The notes beneath the pieces were generated by a model. The model made no database searches. It had not been told where the DNA came from and worked only from the letters and a program-made list of their open reading frames with translations. A stretch of DNA of 64,000 nucleotides from Bacteriovoracaceae bacterium. Its GTDB lineage: Bacteria > Bdellovibrionota > Bacteriovoracia > Bacteriovoracales > Bacteriovoracaceae. A program made the position numbers and the translations under genes. The stretch lies in contig JANJTC010000002.1 in assembly GCA_024711325.1 (NCBI GenBank), positions 186,001 through 250,000 on the forward strand. Reading direction: 5' to 3'. This document shows positions 1,986 to 56,972 of the stretch, piece by piece. Position 1 is the first letter of the stretch. Each line of letters begins with the position of its first letter.

Positions 1986-2408
1986 ATGAAAGAAGAATTG
2001 TATCAAATAGGGACGCTTGCGGAAAGAGCTCAGGTAAGCATACAGACGATTCGTTATTACGAAAGAATTAAGTTACTTTTACCTAAATCGCGCAAAGACT
2101 CCAACAAAACTCGCCTCTATGACGATGAATCTTTAAAGATTCTCCATTTTATAAAATACGCTCAGGAACTCAGCTTTCATCTGGAAGAAATTAAAGAATT
2201 GCTCATTTTAAGATGTGAAGCTACTGGCAATTGTGAAAAGGTTAAAATGAAGGCCGTGGAAAAATTAGATAGCGTTAAATCAAAGATTGAAAAGTTCAAA
2301 GGGATCGAAAAAAGCCTCAAGAAGTTCATCAATGAATGTGAAGATAATAAGGCGAAAAAGTGCCCTATCATAAAAAAATCCGAAAATAATCCAAATAAAT
2401 ATCTATGA
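1986..2408 (+). CDS. MerR-family metal-responsive transcriptional regulator
   Basis: From the ATG at 1986 the protein is 140 residues. The track start at 1971 is a TTG lying in the promoter, so I reject it. Residues 1-70 form the MerR winged helix (QIGTLAERAQVSIQTIRYYE). A dimerisation helix follows, then a metal-binding end. C83, C118 and C126 match Cys82, Cys117 and Cys126 of Tn501 MerR in spacing (35 residues, then 8 versus 9), including the CPI(I/L)-type ending. An extra Cys lies at 77. It is therefore a thiolate metal sensor for Hg, Cd, Pb, Zn or similar. No mer genes are adjacent. It overlaps the next gene by 4 nt and probably controls its own promoter. Confidence 0.88.
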   Translation: MKEELYQIGTLAERAQVSIQTIRYYERIKLLLPKSRKDSNKTRLYDDESLKILHFIKYAQELSFHLEEIKELLILRCEATGNCEKVKMKAVEKLDSVKSKIEKFKGIEKSLKKFINECEDNKAKKCPIIKKSENNPNKYL

Positions 2409-2770
2409 ATATACTTGTCTTAGATGACGACATGTGGATGTTAGAGCTGCTAGATACAGTCTTAACTGAAAATGGTTATCAAATGTCTAAGGCCCTCAAT
2501 AGCTATTCAGCTTTCAAAATGTTCCAAACTATAACTTTTGATCTTATCATCTCTGATATCCATATGCCTCACCCCAATGGTATTGAATTCGGAAAGATGA
2601 TTCGAAAAGAAAATTCTTTGATTCCCATTATCTACTTTTCAGCTGAACTCAATGGACCTGATACCTACGCCGCTGATATTCAAGCAATCACTAATGCTTT
2701 TTATGTTGAGGATAAGCAAATCGAGACGCTCTTAGAGATTATTAGACGATATAAGAATTGCATAAAATAG
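2405..2770 (+). CDS. single-domain response regulator (CheY-like)
   Basis: The 121-residue protein is a lone receiver domain. The acidic pocket (LVLDDD, D7/D8), the phosphoacceptor D51 in IISDIHMP, and the Ser of YFSAE at the Thr/Ser switch are present. The conserved Lys-Pro near the end is not clear: the region reads AFYVEDKQ, so phosphorylation chemistry may be altered. There is no output domain. The start codon overlaps the merR stop (ATGA), which places it in the MerR-controlled operon. No cognate kinase is adjacent. Pairing a MerR sensor with a lone receiver is unusual. Confidence 0.8.
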   Translation: MNILVLDDDMWMLELLDTVLTENGYQMSKALNSYSAFKMFQTITFDLIISDIHMPHPNGIEFGKMIRKENSLIPIIYFSAELNGPDTYAADIQAITNAFYVEDKQIETLLEIIRRYKNCIK

Positions 2771-2818
2771 CTTCAAAAGAACGTTTGGATCATTGAAGTT
2801 TTAATTTATACTAAAGAG

Positions 2819-3373
2819 ATGAGATTTTTAAATCATGGATTTTGGGCACACATATTAGTCAGCGGCATTTACCTTGCGATATCTTCCATCTTTGATTCAA
2901 ATTTTTTTTGGGTAATTGTCCTCAATGATTTCTATGCCGTATTTTTATTGTGCTATCTTCCTTTCTTAAAAGATAAGAAAAGGAAAGTGGTTGAAAATGA
3001 ATTAGATTCTTTTCTTTCAGACTCCTCGGTTGTGCTCAAAATCTATCTTCTGCCCTTATATGCGGTATCTCCTATCTTAGGGGAATTTGATGATTTACAT
3101 CCTTTGCAAACTTCTTACTTGAATGCTGCAATATTTATTCCCTTGTTCTATTCTTTATTTAAGTTAGTCGTAGTGAAAGCTTCAAAAGGAAACGGTCTTA
3201 AACTGGGATTTTTAGGATTGGTGTTTATTGTGGCCATCCACGTCATTGATTACAAATTTTCTCTTCCATTTATACTTATTACCATCGCCAGCACTCTAGT
3301 TTCCGTAACAGCCGTATTAGGTGGTTTATATTTTCAGAGACAAAGAGCATCAGACGCGCAGAATAACTCTTAA
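2819..3373 (+). CDS. polytopic membrane protein, unknown function
   Basis: I do not recognise this 184-residue protein. It has about six hydrophobic segments (for example LVSGIYLAISSIF, FYAVFLLCYLPFL, IYLLPLYAVSPIL, FIPLFYSLFKLVV, LVFIVAIHVIDY, LITIASTLVSV) and a short polar C-terminus. The loop after segment 2 is Lys/Glu rich. No transporter or enzyme motif is visible. The start lacks a strong ribosome site (CTAAAGAG just before the ATG). It lies 48 nt downstream of the response regulator and may share its transcript. Confidence 0.6.
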   Translation: MRFLNHGFWAHILVSGIYLAISSIFDSNFFWVIVLNDFYAVFLLCYLPFLKDKKRKVVENELDSFLSDSSVVLKIYLLPLYAVSPILGEFDDLHPLQTSYLNAAIFIPLFYSLFKLVVVKASKGNGLKLGFLGLVFIVAIHVIDYKFSLPFILITIASTLVSVTAVLGGLYFQRQRASDAQNNS

Positions 3374-5888: not shown

Positions 5889-7310
5889 ATGTTAGGCCAA
5901 AACAATTACAAGAACATTCTTTTCTTTCTGATTCTTTTGATTTCTAAAAATCAATTTGCGGGCACTCTTGAACTTGCGGATTATCTTCATGAGGTCAAAG
6001 CTTCCAATCCCGTGATTCAGGCCTCAATATTAAGGGCCCTTGCTTTAAAGCATAGGATTTCACCAGCAAAGACACTGGATGATCCATTTATAGCTGCTGG
6101 TCTTGATGAAATACCTTTTGAGGGAGGTAAGGGTAAGATATGGCGTTATCAAGTAAGCCAGTCGTTTCCCTTTCCAGGAAAACTCAAGGCAAAAGGAAGT
6201 ATAGCTGAAGAGACTGCCCATATTGCCGAGGCAGATACTGAGACATTAAGTCGACAAATGCAAGTTATGGCCACGCAGTCTTTTCTTAAGGCCGTTTATA
6301 ACTTAAAGGCCATTGAACTCAATGAAAGAATTCGTAAAATTATTGAAGAGACCACAGCAAGCGCCAAGGCCCGTTATCGAACAGGTGATTCCAGCCATCA
6401 CGAATGGTTACTGGCAAAGCTTGAACTCTCAATTTTAAATATTGAAACACTACGCCTTAAGCGTACGCAAACTTCCCTCTATTCCCTGTTAAATGAATTA
6501 CGAAATCTACCACCTGATACAGAAATCAAGCTTAATCTAGATCAAGATAAGCTCGACCAATTCATTTCAAGCAGTATGAAGGAAGATATTGAAAACCAGC
6601 CAGAGGTTAAATCCTGGAAATTTCAAACTAAGGCTGCAGCTTCTGAGTTAAAGCTTGTTAAATTATCCTTCGCTCCGGACTTTGTTATTCAAGGCATGGC
6701 GATGGAACCCAGAACGAAAGAGGCCGGAATGATGGAACCATCCAATTGGGGAGTCATGGTTGGTATTACTGTTCCTATCTTTTTTTGGAGGAAACAGTCA
6801 GAGTTAGTTGCTGCTGCAGAGAATGAAAGACTTTCTAATCTGGCCGGACAAAGAAGCCTCATGAATAGGCTAAAAACCGAATTAACAGACGCTAAGCTTC
6901 AGCTGCAATCCTCCTTAGAAGTTGTAGCTCTCTATCAAAATGATGTTATTCCTTTAACTGAAATAGCTGTTAAGAACGCCCGAACTTCTTATACAGCAAA
7001 AACGATGGATCTCGGTCAGCTCCTTGTGGCCCTTCGTTCGCAGAGAAGTCAGGAGCTAGAATTATTAGGCGCTAGAATGGATGTGTTGATAGCTAAAACT
7101 CGATTGAACAATCTACTTTCAAATCCTCCTGTTCAAAAGTTTGCACCTGCGCGTCCCACTCTTTTTGGTTCAAGTATGGGACAGATGAGTGATTCCGGAA
7201 TGGATAGTCCGGCGACTATTAATATGGGTCAAGGAATGAGCGGTCCTGCTGGAAATAAAAACCCAATAGATGCATCTGGTCCTGCGCCTGATGGAATGAG
7301 AGGAATGTAA
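5889..7310 (+). CDS. cusC: outer-membrane factor of RND metal efflux (CusC/CzcC-like, TolC family)
   Basis: The 473-residue protein has an N-terminal signal peptide (NILFFLILLISKNQFAG), then the two long alpha-hairpin repeats of the outer-membrane efflux protein family. The QVSQSFPFPGKLKAKG and GITVPIFFWRK blocks mark the ends of the beta-barrel strands in CusC/CzcC-type proteins. The last 50 residues form a Met- and Gly-rich tail with seven Met residues (GSSMGQMSDSGM..., ending GMRGM). This is unusual and fits periplasmic Cu(I)/Ag(I) binding. The stop overlaps the cusB start, so it is the first gene of a cusCBA operon. The tail is the main oddity. Confidence 0.85.
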   Translation: MLGQNNYKNILFFLILLISKNQFAGTLELADYLHEVKASNPVIQASILRALALKHRISPAKTLDDPFIAAGLDEIPFEGGKGKIWRYQVSQSFPFPGKLKAKGSIAEETAHIAEADTETLSRQMQVMATQSFLKAVYNLKAIELNERIRKIIEETTASAKARYRTGDSSHHEWLLAKLELSILNIETLRLKRTQTSLYSLLNELRNLPPDTEIKLNLDQDKLDQFISSSMKEDIENQPEVKSWKFQTKAAASELKLVKLSFAPDFVIQGMAMEPRTKEAGMMEPSNWGVMVGITVPIFFWRKQSELVAAAENERLSNLAGQRSLMNRLKTELTDAKLQLQSSLEVVALYQNDVIPLTEIAVKNARTSYTAKTMDLGQLLVALRSQRSQELELLGARMDVLIAKTRLNNLLSNPPVQKFAPARPTLFGSSMGQMSDSGMDSPATINMGQGMSGPAGNKNPIDASGPAPDGMRGM

Positions 7311-27697: not shown

Positions 27698-27946
27698 TTG
27701 GACTCCTCGAATAAATGATTGTTCTGTTATGTTGCTCTGGTGAAGCCTTTTTGTCAGGTAAAAGAACTTCACAAAACCTGACATCAAGTGAATAAAGTTA
27801 ATTTACCAGTATGATCTCAGGGGTATGGAGCGATACCTTCTCAATTTGTCAGCTAAAGTTGAAATTATTTATTTACTTATTTTTTGATTCTTTCTCCTTG
27901 TTTATGATTGTTAGTTGATTCCGATCTTCTTTCTAAAGGAGTTTTT

Positions 27947-28246
27947 ATGGATTCTTTAAATATTGAAATGCCTCTGGTTTCTCAATGTGCCGTTCATGAA
28001 TGTACTTACAACTTAAATAGTAGTTGCCACGCAAAGGCGATCACCATTGGGGATGGTAGTCATCCGGGTTGTGATACTTTTTTTAGTCTGGATGAACATT
28101 GTAAAGAGCAAAACCGACAGGCAGGAGTAGGGGCCTGTAAAGTGAACGATTGCATTCACAATGAGGACTTTGAATGCATGGCCAGGAATATTAATGTTGG
28201 TTTTTCAGGAGATGATATAAATTGTTTAACTTTTAAGGCCAGTTAA
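27947..28246 (+). CDS. DUF1540 protein, two Cys motifs
   Basis: ATG 27947 follows AAAGGAG; the track start at 27908 is upstream of it. The 99-residue product contains two copies of the DUF1540 pattern: CAVHECTYNLNSSCHAKAITIG...GCDTF and CKVNDCIHNEDFECMARNINVG...NCLTF. Nine Cys in all suggest metal binding. The function of the family is unknown. The stop is 1 nt before the phosphoribosyltransferase start, so the two are co-expressed. Confidence 0.82.
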   Translation: MDSLNIEMPLVSQCAVHECTYNLNSSCHAKAITIGDGSHPGCDTFFSLDEHCKEQNRQAGVGACKVNDCIHNEDFECMARNINVGFSGDDINCLTFKAS

Positions 28247-30862: not shown

Positions 30863-31038
30863 GAAACCTCCCATGACTCAATTAACTACCCTAGGTATCA
30901 AGATAAAGGACAGGCACAGTGTGTATTCATCTGGGGCATGGTTGATGAGAAATGTTAAAATATATGACGCAAGTCATGTTGAACTGGACTTTTGGGCCCC
31001 ATAATAATGCAATTATTTTCTTGGCCGGAAGAGTTTAT

Positions 31039-32637
31039 TTGAAAATTCAAACAAAAATTTTACTCCCTTTAATCCTTATTTTTGGGCTGATGTCTGGACT
31101 GGTTATTTTACTTAACTATTCTAATCAACAAACTTTTGTAGAGCGCTTCATCGAAGAGCAAGCATTCCAAACAGCTTCACAGTATTTTGACAGTGTGAAC
31201 GCCATGATGATTACCGGCACGATGGAGAATCGTGAAATTTTACGAAATAAGCTTTTGGAAAATAAAGACATTGAAGACATTAAAATAGTACGTGGCGATA
31301 AAGTTAAGGATATGTATGGAGATGGCTTTAGTTATGAAAGCACCAGGGATGAGCTCGATGAAAGAGGACTCAAAGGAGAAGAGATAAAGATCATTCAGAG
31401 CTTCAAAGGAAAAAGAACTTTGACAGTTTTACTGCCAGTGCTTGCAAGTTCAAATTATCGAGGCACCAATTGTTTAGAGTGCCATGAAGTGCCGGAAGGA
31501 ACAGTCCTGGGAGCAACCAGAATTACATATTCATTAAATCGACTTGATCAGGAAGTGAAAGAAAATAGCATATACGTGGGCAAAATAATGATAGCTTTAT
31601 TCATTGTGGCCCTCTTAATTGTCCTGGGTGTTTTAAGGATAATTGCAGTGAGAAGAGTGAAGCTTATTCAGCAGGATATTGAGCTCATTTCCCAGAATAT
31701 GGATCTAACAAAAACCCTTCGTCGAAATAATTCTAAGGATGAAATTGCCAAAATGGCCAATGCGTTCGATGAGATGTTAAAGACGATCAGGGAGAGCCTA
31801 TTTCAAGTAAAGAATTCTACTTCAGAAATTGTCATGGGAACTGAAGAGATTTCCAACATCACCTCATTAACCGTTTCAGATATTATTCAACAAAAAGAAG
31901 AGATAAATAGTGTTGGTCAGACCATTCGCAAGATGAGCGCATCTTCTCAGAACGTGGCCGATAGTACTCATAAGTCGCAAAGCTTTACTAATAACGTAGA
32001 AGGAGAGGTCGCAGATGGTGCTAATAAGGCCTTCTCCGCTCAACAAAAGATCAATAACCTTTACCTCCAGATTGAACAAGTCTCGGCGATTGCAGAGAAA
32101 CTGGAAATTGAAACCCAGAGAATCGCTGAGTCAGTAAAAGTCGTGGATGATATCACAATGAAAACCCGCTTACTTTCATTCAATGCCTCAGTTGAGGCAG
32201 GAAGAGCAGGTCAGGCAGGACTTGGCTTCTCAGTGGTTGCCAATGAAATAGGCGAACTTGCCCAGCAGACTAAAGAATCCAATCTTGAAATTGGAGAATG
32301 TACCGACCAATTAAAAAAACTCATGCACGAAGCTGTCATCGTTATAAGAGAAACCAAGACGCTTGCCACCGAAGGTCGAAATGAAGTCAACACTTCTTAT
32401 GAAGCATTTAAGAATGTTGCCTTTGAGATGTCTAAGCTAAAAGATGTCATGATCAACATCGCCGGTAGTACCAAAGAACAAAGTGAAGCAACCCGTGAGG
32501 TCGAAGATAATATTCAGTCCATCATGAATCTATCAAATAAAACGACTGTTGCAGCACACAGAATAGGTGAGGTTAGTTCTGATTTTAGTCGCCTGGCCAA
32601 TGAGTTGGATAAGCTCATTAATCAGTTTAAAATTTGA
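31039..32637 (+). CDS. methyl-accepting chemoreceptor with periplasmic c-heme site
   Basis: A TTG at 31039 with GGAAGAG upstream gives MKIQTKILLPLILIFGL, a classic N-terminal anchor; the track start at 30952 adds an implausible 29-residue extension. The 532-residue receptor has TM1, a periplasmic domain (about 25-180) with the heme-binding GTNCLECHEV at 145-149, TM2 (IALFIVALLIVLGVL), a HAMP domain, and a signalling domain whose tip reads RLLSFNASVEAGRAGQAGLGFSVVANEIGELA. Comparable Geobacter receptors bind heme c to sense redox state or small ligands. The C-terminal CheB/CheR pentapeptide is absent. Confidence 0.85.
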   Translation: MKIQTKILLPLILIFGLMSGLVILLNYSNQQTFVERFIEEQAFQTASQYFDSVNAMMITGTMENREILRNKLLENKDIEDIKIVRGDKVKDMYGDGFSYESTRDELDERGLKGEEIKIIQSFKGKRTLTVLLPVLASSNYRGTNCLECHEVPEGTVLGATRITYSLNRLDQEVKENSIYVGKIMIALFIVALLIVLGVLRIIAVRRVKLIQQDIELISQNMDLTKTLRRNNSKDEIAKMANAFDEMLKTIRESLFQVKNSTSEIVMGTEEISNITSLTVSDIIQQKEEINSVGQTIRKMSASSQNVADSTHKSQSFTNNVEGEVADGANKAFSAQQKINNLYLQIEQVSAIAEKLEIETQRIAESVKVVDDITMKTRLLSFNASVEAGRAGQAGLGFSVVANEIGELAQQTKESNLEIGECTDQLKKLMHEAVIVIRETKTLATEGRNEVNTSYEAFKNVAFEMSKLKDVMINIAGSTKEQSEATREVEDNIQSIMNLSNKTTVAAHRIGEVSSDFSRLANELDKLINQFKI

Positions 32638-32643
32638 ACTGAA

Positions 32644-33747
32644 TCAGCTGACCTTACGATTGAATGTTTTCAACAATTCATCAGTGGTCAGGAAGAAATC
32701 TCTCGCCTGACCTACAATATCGGCCGATTCTTTTTGTGACTTTTCGATGGAATTTATATCCAATTGACTCTCACTTCTAAGCTCTGTCATATTCTGACCA
32801 ATCTCTAGGATCTTTTTTTCCTGTTCAAGATTAGAGTTCATAATTTCATTAATCCAATGAGTTGCTTTGGAAATATTTCTTACGACTTCATCCAAAACAA
32901 TATCTGATTCTGTCGCCGTGATTTTACCAATTTCGACCTTTTCCTTTCCTGCGCTAACCAGCTCTTTAATACTTTCATTCGTTTCTTTAACGATCATGTT
33001 AACTTTCTCTATATTTTCTGCCAGCATGACTGAAATTTCCAAGGCCGAGCTTCCGCTCATGGCCGCTAGTTTCCCAATTTCCTCAGCAACAACGGAAAAA
33101 CCTTTGCCATGCTCTCCTGCGCGGGCCGCCTCAACGGACGCATTAAAAGATAATAACTTAGTTTGAAAAACAATATCGTTAATGACTTTTGTTTTGGTAT
33201 CAATTTCCGAGATGACTTGAACCACTTCAGATATGCGATGATTACTGTTCTCAATGGCGTGGACCATCTTCTCATTACTCATGTAAATCTGATTAACTGC
33301 CTCTAACATATCCAGGACGACTTCTTTTCCTTTATTGGCGGTGTAGTGACTCACTTCTACCGCCTCTGTCATTCTTTCCGATGTCTCAGAATTTTTATCA
33401 ATGGAAGTCTTCATTTGCTCAATAGTCGTTATGGTCGTATCCATCAAGTTGAATTTGCTCATCTTGGTTTCATAGACAGAATCGTTAGAGCAGTTTTTAA
33501 AATGCGAGGCATTTTTTTTAATATTATTCTCTATTTCTTCCAGATGATTAAGTACCTTCAAGACAGTTTTAAAGGTGACCACACCAATCAGGCAATAACT
33601 CCCAAGTCCCAGAGCAAGGTAGGCATAGATATAAGGATTGCCCGTCGGATAATTATAATAGTACAAAGCTCCTAAAAAACTAAGAGTAAGAAGGAACATT
33701 GAAAGGAATAAAATGGTGAATTTATTTTTTAAGCTAATGTTTTTCAT
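32644..33747 (-). CDS. short methyl-accepting chemoreceptor without large sensory domain
   Basis: The 367-residue receptor has two membrane segments (residues 9-28 and 38-60) joined by only about 10 residues, so it has no ligand-binding periplasmic domain. A signalling coiled coil follows, with the tip KLLSFNASVEAARAGEHGKGFSVVAEEIGKLA. Such receptors may sense within the membrane or cytoplasm or act through partner proteins. It is convergent with the heme receptor (6 nt between stops) and the pair may work with the hemerythrin gene next door. Confidence 0.88.
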   Translation of the reverse strand: MKNISLKNKFTILFLSMFLLTLSFLGALYYYNYPTGNPYIYAYLALGLGSYCLIGVVTFKTVLKVLNHLEEIENNIKKNASHFKNCSNDSVYETKMSKFNLMDTTITTIEQMKTSIDKNSETSERMTEAVEVSHYTANKGKEVVLDMLEAVNQIYMSNEKMVHAIENSNHRISEVVQVISEIDTKTKVINDIVFQTKLLSFNASVEAARAGEHGKGFSVVAEEIGKLAAMSGSSALEISVMLAENIEKVNMIVKETNESIKELVSAGKEKVEIGKITATESDIVLDEVVRNISKATHWINEIMNSNLEQEKKILEIGQNMTELRSESQLDINSIEKSQKESADIVGQARDFFLTTDELLKTFNRKVS

Positions 33748-33855: not shown

Positions 33856-34275
33856 ATGAAAACAGATCGATATCGTAAACACCATGATGAATTATTAAAC
33901 GTTGTGGGTAACATTCAAAAGTATCTCTCAGTCGGAGAAGTGCAGTCAAACCCAGCAGCTATTCGAAAGCTTTTAACAATACTTGCCGGTGCCGTCAGAA
34001 TTCATCTGGCCTTTGAGGATAGGGCCCTTTATCCTTCGCTTCTTGCCAGCACTAACTCAACAATTAGTACAACTGCAAGAAAATTTATGGATGAGATGAG
34101 TGGGATTCAAGGTGTCCTCGAAAGATATTTAGATAAGTACCATTCAGTTAAAATCATTAAAAACAATCCGGATGAATTTATTCATGAAACCAAAGAATTA
34201 TTTAAAGTATTGGGAGAAAGAATTGGCAGAGAGAATAGGGACTTTTACCCTTTGGTGGATGCAATGAATGATTAG
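33856..34275 (+). CDS. hemerythrin-like oxygen-binding domain protein
   Basis: The 139-residue protein has the diiron ligand pattern of the hemerythrin HHE family: RKHHDELL (helix A), [15 protein letters not shown] (helix B HxxxE) and ENRDFYPLV with the ExxxYP form. It should be a four-helix cytoplasmic protein that binds O2 or NO, or stores iron. AAGGAG precedes the ATG. It lies between a chemoreceptor and an ABC transporter and its stop overlaps the permease stop (convergent, 4 nt). An aerotaxis role with the receptors is inference. Confidence 0.85.
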
Positions 34276-53493: not shown

Positions 53494-54462
53494 ATGAAGC
53501 AACTTAAAGCGGAATTTCTGTTTTTGTTTCTGCTTATTTCCTGCCAGGGACCCTATTCAGCTCTTGGGCCGGCGGGGAGTGCTGCCCGAACAATCTCGGG
53601 TATGTTTTGGTGGTTATGTGGAGCAGGCTTAGCGATATGGTTGCTATTTGTGGCCTTAGAGCTTTATGCCATTTTAGTTAAACCTGGGCCTCATGATTTA
53701 AAAAAAACGAGGCTGTTTGTCATTGGTGGTGGGGTGATCTTTCCTGTAATCATCATAACCATTTCGATCTATTTTAGCCTTGCTCCCTTGCCTGATCTTG
53801 TAAAGATGGCCCCCAAAGGAAGCGTTGTAGTAAAAGTCAGCGGACTGCAATGGTGGTGGAGGGTCAAATATCCACTTGCTAATGATCAAGAAATTGAAGT
53901 CGCCAATGAAATCTGGTTGCCGGTGAATGAGCCAGTGCAGTTTCTTCTATCGAGTGAAGATGTCATTCATTCATTCTGGGTTCCGTCCTTGGCCGGCAAG
54001 ATTGACATGATTCCCGGCCAGACGAATCATCTAAGTTTCACTCCAACTAAAACCGGACATTATCTGGGATCTTGTGCAGAATTTTGCGGCACTTCACATG
54101 CCCTGATGCGACTGGATGTGAAAGTTGTCGAAAGAAACGTTTTTGATGAATGGTTAAAAAAGCAAGAACGTTCCGTGAAGAAAACTGGTTCTCCTGGTGA
54201 AACGGCCTTTGTTTCAAATGGTTGTATTTCCTGTCATACCGTAAGAGGAATTAGTTCTCTGGGCAAAATTGGACCTGATCTTACTCATGTTGGAAGCCGT
54301 AGAAGAATCGGTTCTGGCATTCTAAATAACGATGCAAATCAAATTCATCGCTGGATTGATGAGGTTGATCTGATTAAACCCGAAGCCAAAATGCCTTCCT
54401 TTAAAAGCCTTCCCATAGAAGAGCGAAAGGCCTTAGCAAAATGGCTTGAAGGATTGAAATGA
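53494..54462 (+). CDS. ctaC: cytochrome c oxidase subunit II with C-terminal heme c domain
   Basis: From ATG 53494 (322 residues) the protein has a lipoprotein-type signal (FLFLFLLISC), two membrane segments and the CuA domain. The CuA ligands are in GSCAEFCGTSHALM. A fused cytochrome c domain follows with NGCISCHTVRG and PSFKSLP as the Met-ligand region (KMPSF). This is the caa3-type layout. It accepts electrons from soluble cytochrome c and passes them to subunit I. It overlaps the next gene by 4 nt. Confidence 0.92.
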   Translation: MKQLKAEFLFLFLLISCQGPYSALGPAGSAARTISGMFWWLCGAGLAIWLLFVALELYAILVKPGPHDLKKTRLFVIGGGVIFPVIIITISIYFSLAPLPDLVKMAPKGSVVVKVSGLQWWWRVKYPLANDQEIEVANEIWLPVNEPVQFLLSSEDVIHSFWVPSLAGKIDMIPGQTNHLSFTPTKTGHYLGSCAEFCGTSHALMRLDVKVVERNVFDEWLKKQERSVKKTGSPGETAFVSNGCISCHTVRGISSLGKIGPDLTHVGSRRRIGSGILNNDANQIHRWIDEVDLIKPEAKMPSFKSLPIEERKALAKWLEGLK

Positions 54463-56972
54463 AAGAAGATGAGATCGATGAAATTCGAGAAGGACAGGAG
54501 AGAAGGCTTCTTAAGGCCTGGAAAGTACCAGAAGGTTGGAGGTATTGGTCTGAGGTCAACAATTCAGAAGTAGGTATGTGGTATACACTTACGTCTCTTG
54601 GATTTTTTTTCTTTGCAGGTGTTTTAGCGCTATTAATACGAATTCAATTAGCAGTTCCTGATAATGATTTTTTGACGGCCGATCAGTATAATCAAATCTT
54701 CACCATGCATGGAACCGTGATGATGTTCCTTTTTGCTATTCCCATTTTTGAGGCCATTTCCATCCTCTTATTACCTCAGATGCTGGGGGCAAGGGATCTT
54801 CCGTTTCCTCGCTTGTCTGCCTATGGCTATTGGTGTTTTCTTCTGGGTGGGATTTTTGTCTGTGGTTCACTTTTTTTTGGGGCAGCACCTAAAGGAGGAT
54901 GGTTTATGTATCCTCCACTCACGTCAAATTATCAACCTGGCGTGGGAGCGGATATCTGGCTTTTAGGTTTAACTTTCATTGAAATTGCATCAATTGCCGC
55001 GGCCGTTGAACTTATAGTCGGCATTTTAAAATGCCGACCACCTGGTATGAGAATTAACCTTATGCCTATTTATGCCTGGTATATTTTGGTTGTTGCCATC
55101 ATGATCTTATTTGCTTTCCCCCCCCTTATTGCAGGTGATATTTTACTTGAGATGGAGCGTGCTTTTGACTGGCCTTTTTTTGATGAAAGGCGAGGAGGCA
55201 ATCCACTCTTATGGCAGCATTTGTTCTGGATCTTCGGTCACCCGGAAGTCTACATCATCTTCCTACCATCCATCGCCCTTCTGGCCACGATTATTCCTAC
55301 TTTTTCACGGGTCCATCTAGTGGGCCATAGTTGGGTCGTTTTGTCTGCTGTAGGGACAGGCTTTTTAAGCTTTGGATTATGGGTTCACCATATGTTTACG
55401 ACAGGACTTCCTGGTGTTTCACTCGGTATTTTTTCTGCTGCCTCTCAAGCGGTTGCCATTCCAACAGGTGTCCAACTTTTTTGTTTTCTCGCGACACTTC
55501 TGACTGGGCATTTTATAAAATCAGTTCCTATGTTATTTGCACTGGGTGGCATGGCGACTTTTGTCATTGGCGGATTAACGGGAGTGATGGTGGCGATAGC
55601 TCCTTTTGATTTTCAGGCGCATGACACTTTCTTTGTAGTAGGACACCTTCATTATGTATTGATTGGTGGAAGTGTCTTTCCGATTCTGGCCGGCATTTAT
55701 TATTATGCTCCAATTGTTAGTGGCAAAAAACTTTCAGAACGTCTTGGTAGGCTTTGTTTTTGGCTCGTGATTATTGGTTTTAATGTCACCTTTTTTCCAA
55801 TGCACGCCAGTGGCCTCTTAGGAATGCCCCGGCGTGTGTATACCTATCCAGCGGAAATGGGAATAGGGGGATTAAATCTCATCTCAACTATCGGGGCCTT
55901 TATTTTGGGAGCAGGTTTTCTGGTTTTACTTTGGGATATTTTAAGGCCCAAGTCCAAGCAGCCCTATTCAGAAAGAAATCCTTGGGGAGCTGGCACGATG
56001 GAATGGGCGATGAAGATTCCTGACCGTATGTGGGGTGTTCGTTCTATCCCTCTTATTAAGACTCGTTATCCACTTTGGGACCAGCCAAATTTTATAAAAG
56101 ATATTGATCACGGAAATTTCTATCTGCCTGATGCAGAGGAAGAGATGCGGGAAACATTGATCACCAGCACACTTGATGCTCATCCCATCCAGTGCATGAG
56201 AGTTCCCGGTCCGACTTTTGTTACCCATCTGGCAGCATTATTCTCCGGAGGGTTTTTTATTTTTGCCACTTATCACTGGTGGATTCCCACTATTATCTCC
56301 GGGATTCTCGCGGTTATATTTATTGTTTACTGGTTGTGGACTGGAACGGCCTGGATCCCTGAAAAAAATGAGAAAAACGTAGGCATGGGAGTGAGCCTTC
56401 CTATTTATAAATCCGGACCGCTGGCCGCTGGATGGTGGGCCATGTTTATAACCATGCTGGCAGACATGACCGCCTTCATTTCATTAATATTTGGATATTT
56501 CTTCTATTGGACTGTTCAAGAAAACTTTCCTCCCCAAAAAATTGCCGGGCCGGAGTTTCTCTGGCCAGTGACAGGAGCTGGCCTGCTCTTATTCTCATGG
56601 ATACTGACTAAGTTATCCTGGAAGTGGAACCGGGAAAATAAAACCAAACGCTTTTATTCATCTTTACTGACTGCAAGCTTAATGTCGTTAGCGGGAGGGA
56701 TCGCTTTTCTGGCAGGACCATGGGTTCATAAGATGGATCCAACCGTACATGTTTATCAGGCCATTGTCTGGGTACTCGTTATTTGGACGGCATTACATGC
56801 TGTCCTTGGATCGCTAATGCAAGTGTATTGTCTTGCAAGGAGAATGGCAGGAAGAATGACAGCGCTCTATGATGCTGACATAACGAACGTTTCTCTCTAT
56901 GCATGCTTCATGGCCGTAACGGGAATAATCACTGCACTGGTTATTTCCGGTTTTCCGGCAATAGGAAGGTGA
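54459..56972 (+). CDS. ctaD: cytochrome c oxidase subunit I + III fusion
   Basis: The 837-residue protein combines COX1 (residues 1-580) and COX3-like (about 645-837). Heme-copper ligands and channel residues: MHGTVMMF, HLFWIFGHPEVYIIFLP with the His-Tyr crosslink region, WVHHMFTTG and HDTFFVVGHLHYVLIGG. GHPEVY marks an A1-type proton pathway. The COX3 part has WAMFITMLADMTAFISLIFGYFF and HAVLGSLM. CtaDE fusions of this kind occur in caa3 oxidases. Confidence 0.95.
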   Translation: MKEDEIDEIREGQERRLLKAWKVPEGWRYWSEVNNSEVGMWYTLTSLGFFFFAGVLALLIRIQLAVPDNDFLTADQYNQIFTMHGTVMMFLFAIPIFEAISILLLPQMLGARDLPFPRLSAYGYWCFLLGGIFVCGSLFFGAAPKGGWFMYPPLTSNYQPGVGADIWLLGLTFIEIASIAAAVELIVGILKCRPPGMRINLMPIYAWYILVVAIMILFAFPPLIAGDILLEMERAFDWPFFDERRGGNPLLWQHLFWIFGHPEVYIIFLPSIALLATIIPTFSRVHLVGHSWVVLSAVGTGFLSFGLWVHHMFTTGLPGVSLGIFSAASQAVAIPTGVQLFCFLATLLTGHFIKSVPMLFALGGMATFVIGGLTGVMVAIAPFDFQAHDTFFVVGHLHYVLIGGSVFPILAGIYYYAPIVSGKKLSERLGRLCFWLVIIGFNVTFFPMHASGLLGMPRRVYTYPAEMGIGGLNLISTIGAFILGAGFLVLLWDILRPKSKQPYSERNPWGAGTMEWAMKIPDRMWGVRSIPLIKTRYPLWDQPNFIKDIDHGNFYLPDAEEEMRETLITSTLDAHPIQCMRVPGPTFVTHLAALFSGGFFIFATYHWWIPTIISGILAVIFIVYWLWTGTAWIPEKNEKNVGMGVSLPIYKSGPLAAGWWAMFITMLADMTAFISLIFGYFFYWTVQENFPPQKIAGPEFLWPVTGAGLLLFSWILTKLSWKWNRENKTKRFYSSLLTASLMSLAGGIAFLAGPWVHKMDPTVHVYQAIVWVLVIWTALHAVLGSLMQVYCLARRMAGRMTALYDADITNVSLYACFMAVTGIITALVISGFPAIGR

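Follow-up and report, generated by a model that had tools for sequence, protein, structure and literature searches.

A chemoreceptor with a predicted periplasmic c-type heme in a Bacteriovoracaceae bacterium, and nitric oxide or redox state as its possible signals

The stretch of Bacteriovoracaceae DNA analysed here (the window; 64,000 nucleotides) encodes a chemoreceptor ordered as a first transmembrane helix (TM1), a periplasmic Cache domain with a CxxCH motif, a second transmembrane helix (TM2), a weak HAMP region and a full MCP signalling domain. From its sequence, a structural model and analogy with studied proteins, we give an even chance to the reading that it is a c-heme Cache chemoreceptor which signals nitric oxide (NO), or a denitrification-linked redox state, to CheA, with NO or redox more likely than oxygen as the signal. 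Few periplasmic NO sensors are known, to our knowledge. The biochemical case for heme-Cache domains as NO sensors comes from one recent study of a single signalling protein (PMC12889525), and a receptor that is co-inherited with the copper nitrite reductase NirK and with NO reductase, and has the same predicted cofactor, offers a natural test case for NO sensing. The receptor adds to the c-heme MCPs already described, and the NO hypothesis is testable.

The receptor frame and its features are listed in Table 1. An upstream ATG at 30952 is a possible alternative start, and the stretch between this ATG and the TTG was poorly conserved even against the relative that shares 98% receptor identity. 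The initial annotation, made from the sequence, had described a heme motif lying between two membrane helices and a complete MCP signalling tip, and this layout was confirmed by hydropathy and by Pfam, with MCPsignal (PF00015) scoring 104.9 bits against a cut-off of 34.6 (E 5.7e-30). The HAMP match, at 21.3 bits, fell short of its cut-off (25), and the full-length model of the receptor was of low confidence over residues 221-235, within the HAMP region.

Table 1. Features of the predicted c-heme receptor gene, in window positions.
Feature	Position	Strand	Extent or detail	Basis
Shine-Dalgarno-like GGAAG	31027..31031	+	7 bases 5' of the TTG	sequence reading
Predicted c-heme chemoreceptor gene	31039..32637	+	532 aa; TTG start at 31039, stop ending at 32637	ORF list, MCPsignal match, 11 intact orthologues
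TM1	31051..31119	+	residues ~5-27	hydropathy
Predicted periplasmic single-Cache sensor domain	31120..31572	+	residues ~28-178	AlphaFold2 model, Foldseek
Hinge of the two N-terminal helices	31207..31224	+	residues 57-62 (M-I-T-G-x-M)	invariant Met57, Met62
CLECH, putative heme c attachment motif	31471..31485	+	C145, C148, H149	invariant in intact orthologues, present in Aeromonas
TM2	31579..31653	+	residues ~181-205	hydropathy
Degenerate HAMP linker	31651..31794	+	residues 205-252	Pfam HAMP, sub-threshold
Cytoplasmic MCP signalling domain, including the hairpin tip	32020..32529	+	residues 328-497	Pfam PF00015

The sequence GTNCLECHE occupies residues 142-150 of the receptor and is flanked by TM1 and TM2. 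The whole protein contains 3 Cys and 4 His, two of the three Cys being those of C145-L-E-C148-H149, and the number of CxxCH motifs expected from this composition is 0.0001; the motif is not there by chance. Twelve orthologues were found in 129 genomes of the order, all within a single family, and the 11 intact copies were spread over four genera with sensor-region identities of 43-98%. C145, C148 and H149 were invariant in every intact copy (11/11), within a constant G-T-N-C-x-E-C-H, and the twelfth copy (G012, a fragmented assembly) was broken off just 5' of the motif. Loss of the CxxCH in orthologues, the outcome that had been named beforehand as speaking against a heme receptor, was accordingly not seen. 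A profile search across the phylum found orthologues confined to one family, its extra match (E 9e-4) covering the TM1 region alone. The close relatives of the window genome are Bacteriovoracaceae MAGs, in keeping, as regards taxonomic placement, with the earlier description of the host as a predatory-type bacterium.

The sensor domain was modelled by AlphaFold2 with ten orthologues (mean pLDDT 89.1, pTM 0.83) and began with one long and one short helix; strands accompanied by two small helices came next, with a helix bearing the CxxCH directly before the last strand. When this model was compared with the PDB by Foldseek, the first and second ranks were taken by chains A and B of 3b42 (E 2.7e-5 and 5.4e-5; probability 1.00), followed by the Cache-type sensors TlpA, CitA, DcuS and KinD. 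TM-scores between the sensor model and 3b42 were low (0.38-0.48), perhaps owing to the helix-swapped dimer of the crystal form (PMC3460858). The full-length receptor model matched only coiled coils and cytoplasmic MCP domains in Foldseek. The protein of 3b42, GSU0935, was not found by PDB sequence searches with the receptor protein, its ortholog profile, a Bdellovibrionota PF11845 receptor or an ad hoc composite consensus; its aligned identity to the receptor sensor is only 18-20%, and no PDB chain was detectable by sequence. GSU0935 and GSU0582, MCPs of Geobacter sulfurreducens (PDB 3B42 and 3B47), have the TM-domain-TM-(HAMP)-MCP order in common with the receptor, as well as a single Cache/PAS-like fold with one CxxCH near the domain end. 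That the receptor is built like GSU0935, as a predicted c-heme MCP with a single-Cache sensor, is well supported.

Genes of the CcsA type (PF01578) and the ResB type (PF05140), which together form the core of the system II cytochrome c maturation pathway, stand side by side in the window genome, so covalent attachment of heme in the periplasm is feasible. The proposal of a Geobacter-type c-heme receptor in the initial annotation thus gains from a best PDB match to GSU0935, an invariant motif and the presence of maturation genes, and the structure prediction that it had suggested as a check returned a Cache fold with GSU0935 as the nearest solved structure. DcrA of Desulfovibrio vulgaris, as it is cited in PMC8396549, is also an MCP with a periplasmic c-heme domain; DcrA has a cytoplasmic PAS domain, whereas Pfam gives none in the window receptor, and the two are likened by description and not by sequence. 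The window genome also encodes a stand-alone Tll0287-type heme-Cache protein (L026, G000:C7:364832-365251; PF11845 at 60.7 bits) with an axial-Cys-like motif, and both kinds of c-heme Cache proteins, receptor and stand-alone, are present in it.

Judged by its modelled fold and its motif, the receptor is a member of the heme-Cache group, divergent, shorter and outside the present Pfam model. In sCache_heme proteins the CxxCH lies in an insertion ahead of the last strand (PMC12889525), and this family (Tll0287-like; PF11845, the former DUF3365) shares both the Cache fold and the insertion before the last strand with the receptor, the strand-CxxCH-strand regions being colinear. Against PF11845 the receptor scored 12.1 bits, under the gathering cut-off of 24.1, and at most two of ten orthologues matched at E<1 (best 0.074); Pfam and NCBIfam gave the sensor domain only sub-threshold matches. 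Alignment of the receptor subfamily with Bdellovibrionota PF11845 receptors by hhalign gave a local probability of 79.5% over the strand-CxxCH-strand region, and 4.6% once nine residues around the CxxCH were masked (reversed controls <=0.3%). As the similarity to PF11845 was nearly gone with the motif masked, a separate acquisition of heme is conceivable, and by this sequence comparison the receptor lineage may descend from one independent of the Tll0287 family. C-terminal to the CxxCH, the Bdellovibrionota PF11845 receptors have a loop of ~25 residues (DPATSPWKNGKDILGYPMENWKDGKLHG) where the receptor subfamily has a short EVPEGTVLGA turn, and stand-alone PF11845 members have an axial-Cys VCxPxG motif that the receptor lacks. 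GSU0935 is likewise remote from the PF11845 profile, since the profile detected Tll0287 in the PDB (5b82, E 8e-33) and did not match GSU0935. A further family, PF21563 (the Mcp40H-20 sensor family), matched some orthologues weakly (best E 0.001) and had no member above cut-off in the window genome.

In plasmid records, tblastn revealed a protein of Aeromonas caviae (L041, 273 aa) with 36% identity to the receptor over 176 residues. This protein has the motifs YFDxxNxxMxTGxM and RGTxCxxCHxVPExTVLGA in common with the receptor subfamily, reading RGTDCTSCH at the heme site, and is likewise not recognised by PF11845. It is arranged as TM-Cache-TM-HAMP, and its chain stops after the HAMP, without an MCP domain. 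It was the sole relative of the receptor in the plasmid collection, and its record (NZ_AP026896.1), labelled plasmid pKAM479_3, is 4.9 Mb long and chromosome-like. The receptor subfamily of Bacteriovoracaceae and Aeromonas would represent c-heme chemoreceptors overlooked by the current family model.

The window genome encodes a respiratory nitrate reductase (narG above cut-off, NnrS beside it), a copper nitrite reductase above its curated cut-off with copper-ligand residues readable, and two quinol-type NO reductases, together with cbb3 and other oxidases. Across the 129 genomes of the order, NirK was detected in 6 of the 12 receptor carriers and 4 of the 117 other genomes (Fisher p 3e-5); for NO reductase the figures were 7/12 and 16/117 (Fisher p 0.001), both p values being uncorrected for kinship. 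Within the window genus, all five carriers had NO reductase, as did one of the 21 non-carriers (p 9e-5), and NirK was present in 4/5 carriers and 0/21 non-carriers (p 3e-4), again uncorrected for kinship. The receptor's own clade (two genera, 7 genomes including G081) had NO reductase in 7/7 and NirK in 6/7, and in a receptor tree with a midpoint root only, in which the near-identical pair G000/G081 was represented by one sequence, the NO-reductase carriers formed one well-supported group (100/100). NO cannot be a family-wide rule, because neither NO reductase nor NirK was detected in the five genomes with more distant receptor copies (G002, G003, G012, G049 and G050). The co-occurrence counts are not independent events, and shared descent may be a partial source of them. 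The link between the receptor and NO-handling genes is thus suggestive, and it would be expected equally of a receptor that senses NO directly and of one that reads a redox state set by denitrification.

An rpoB control tree for the co-occurrence was precluded, as E. coli RpoB, used as the query at E <= 1e-50, had no match in the window genome (G000) or in several of its closest relatives (G080, G081, G082 and G086). A full-length rpoB match was obtained in most other genomes of the family, and the absence could mean that contigs are missing, that the gene is altered or that the search itself is at fault. Separately, a cytochrome oxidase subunit I-type gene lies in the window at 54459-56972 (+) (PF00115, 467 bits), and PF00115-type loci number five in the window genome, two of them being the NO reductases.

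The sensor domains of GSU0582 and GSU0935 bind NO and CO (PMC3460858) and, with midpoint potentials of -156 and -251 mV, have been interpreted mainly as redox-switched sensors (PMC8396549). In a 2026 preprint (PMC12889525), the heme-Cache proteins tested formed no stable oxy-complex, and the one NO-binding signalling protein tested bound NO tightly and stably, with the properties of an NO sensor and not of an O2 sensor. Where the two N-terminal helices meet in a hinge, two methionines, Met57 and Met62, are invariant in the orthologues and also kept in the Aeromonas relative, and they stand 92 and 87 residues N-terminal to the heme His, compared with 84 for Met60 in GSU0935. By analogy with Met60 (PMC8396549), both are candidate distal heme ligands. 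The single-Cache domain of the receptor would hold one covalent c-type heme in the periplasm, with His149 as the probable proximal ligand and Met57 or Met62 as a switchable distal ligand, which would be displaced by NO binding or by oxidation of the heme. Such displacement would alter the pairing of the N-terminal helices in the dimer and shift TM2, and the TM2 shift would change CheA activity, so that cells would be steered along gradients of denitrification or NO and not of oxygen itself.

A narrower form of this proposal, a dedicated NO-taxis receptor belonging to a heme-Cache lineage that Pfam does not recognise and co-inherited with nitrite and NO reductases in Bacteriovorax-like hosts, appears possible and yet rather unlikely. 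Less probable than the preferred reading, and tentative, is a redox or energy sensor, in which periplasmic carriers or the environment would reduce and oxidise the c-heme, oxidation would free the distal Met, and the ligand-free ferric state would signal, as proposed for GSU0582 and GSU0935, with gases being incidental. The signalling of GSU0935, the closest solved relative, is explained by a redox-linked change of ligation (PMC8396549), for which the invariant Met57 or Met62 could serve as the switched ligand; the genomes of the distant orthologues are without NO genes, and that of the window has cbb3 and other oxidases and a nitrate reductase. Redox sensing alone, however, leaves the constant NO reductase and the frequent NirK of the receptor's own clade unexplained, although denitrification also sets the periplasmic redox state. 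If the CxxCH bore no heme and were a metal or structural site, the domain would sense an ordinary small ligand as Cache domains do. Heme cannot be demonstrated from sequence, and some orthologues weakly match PF21563, which, to go by its name, would be a ligand-binding domain of MCPs; we nevertheless regard this as very improbable, given that the CxxCH is exactly invariant, lies on the periplasmic side at a position matching GSU0935 and is accompanied by maturation genes in the genome.

The initial annotation had proposed that the receptor may guide aerotaxis or redox taxis to prey, and had taken an adjacent hemerythrin gene as support for oxygen sensing. Redox taxis may still apply, and aerotaxis has become the weaker part, because the c-heme Cache sensors tested bind NO and the gene co-occurs with enzymes that produce and consume NO. 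An aerotaxis receptor, in which the heme would bind O2 or be autoxidised by it and would guide cells to oxygen or prey with the hemerythrin as an accessory, is in our view improbable. DcrA, a c-heme MCP, has been reported as a sensor of oxygen or of redox potential, as cited in PMC8396549, and a hemerythrin-domain gene does lie 1.2 kb downstream of the receptor (33856-34275). It is nearby and not an immediate neighbour, being separated from the receptor by a second MCP gene on the other strand (32644-33747). The second MCP, hemerythrin and ABC genes beside the receptor were kept only in L021, the locus with the 98% identical receptor, and no hemerythrin gene was seen in the flanks examined around the orthologues L022-L025 (64-78% identical). 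As the linkage is not conserved past this near-identical species, hemerythrin was rejected as support for oxygen sensing, and the absence of a stable oxy-complex in tested heme-Cache proteins (PMC12889525) also counts against aerotaxis. NO or denitrification-linked redox state thus stands as the preferred reading of the signal.

A parB-like gene was found close to the receptor in four of the five loci compared (L021-L025), and in L022 cheA and cheW lie directly 3' of the receptor gene. The second MCP-domain protein of the window (32644-33747, minus strand; 367 aa) has two membrane helices with few residues between them, and its gene is arranged tail to tail with that of the heme receptor, a comparable neighbour being seen only in L021. 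The block that separates the receptor from the parB-like gene is kept in L021 and not in L022-L025, and includes a gene (27908-28246, plus strand) for a cysteine-rich protein of 112 aa that matches DUF1540 (PF07561). In L023, the heme receptor has a NirK-like copper nitrite reductase gene (2047-3087, minus strand; TIGR02376 at 202.9 bits, below the cut-off of 296.3) ~1.9 kb upstream and the gene of a Crp/FNR-like regulator (6610-7300, minus strand) directly downstream.
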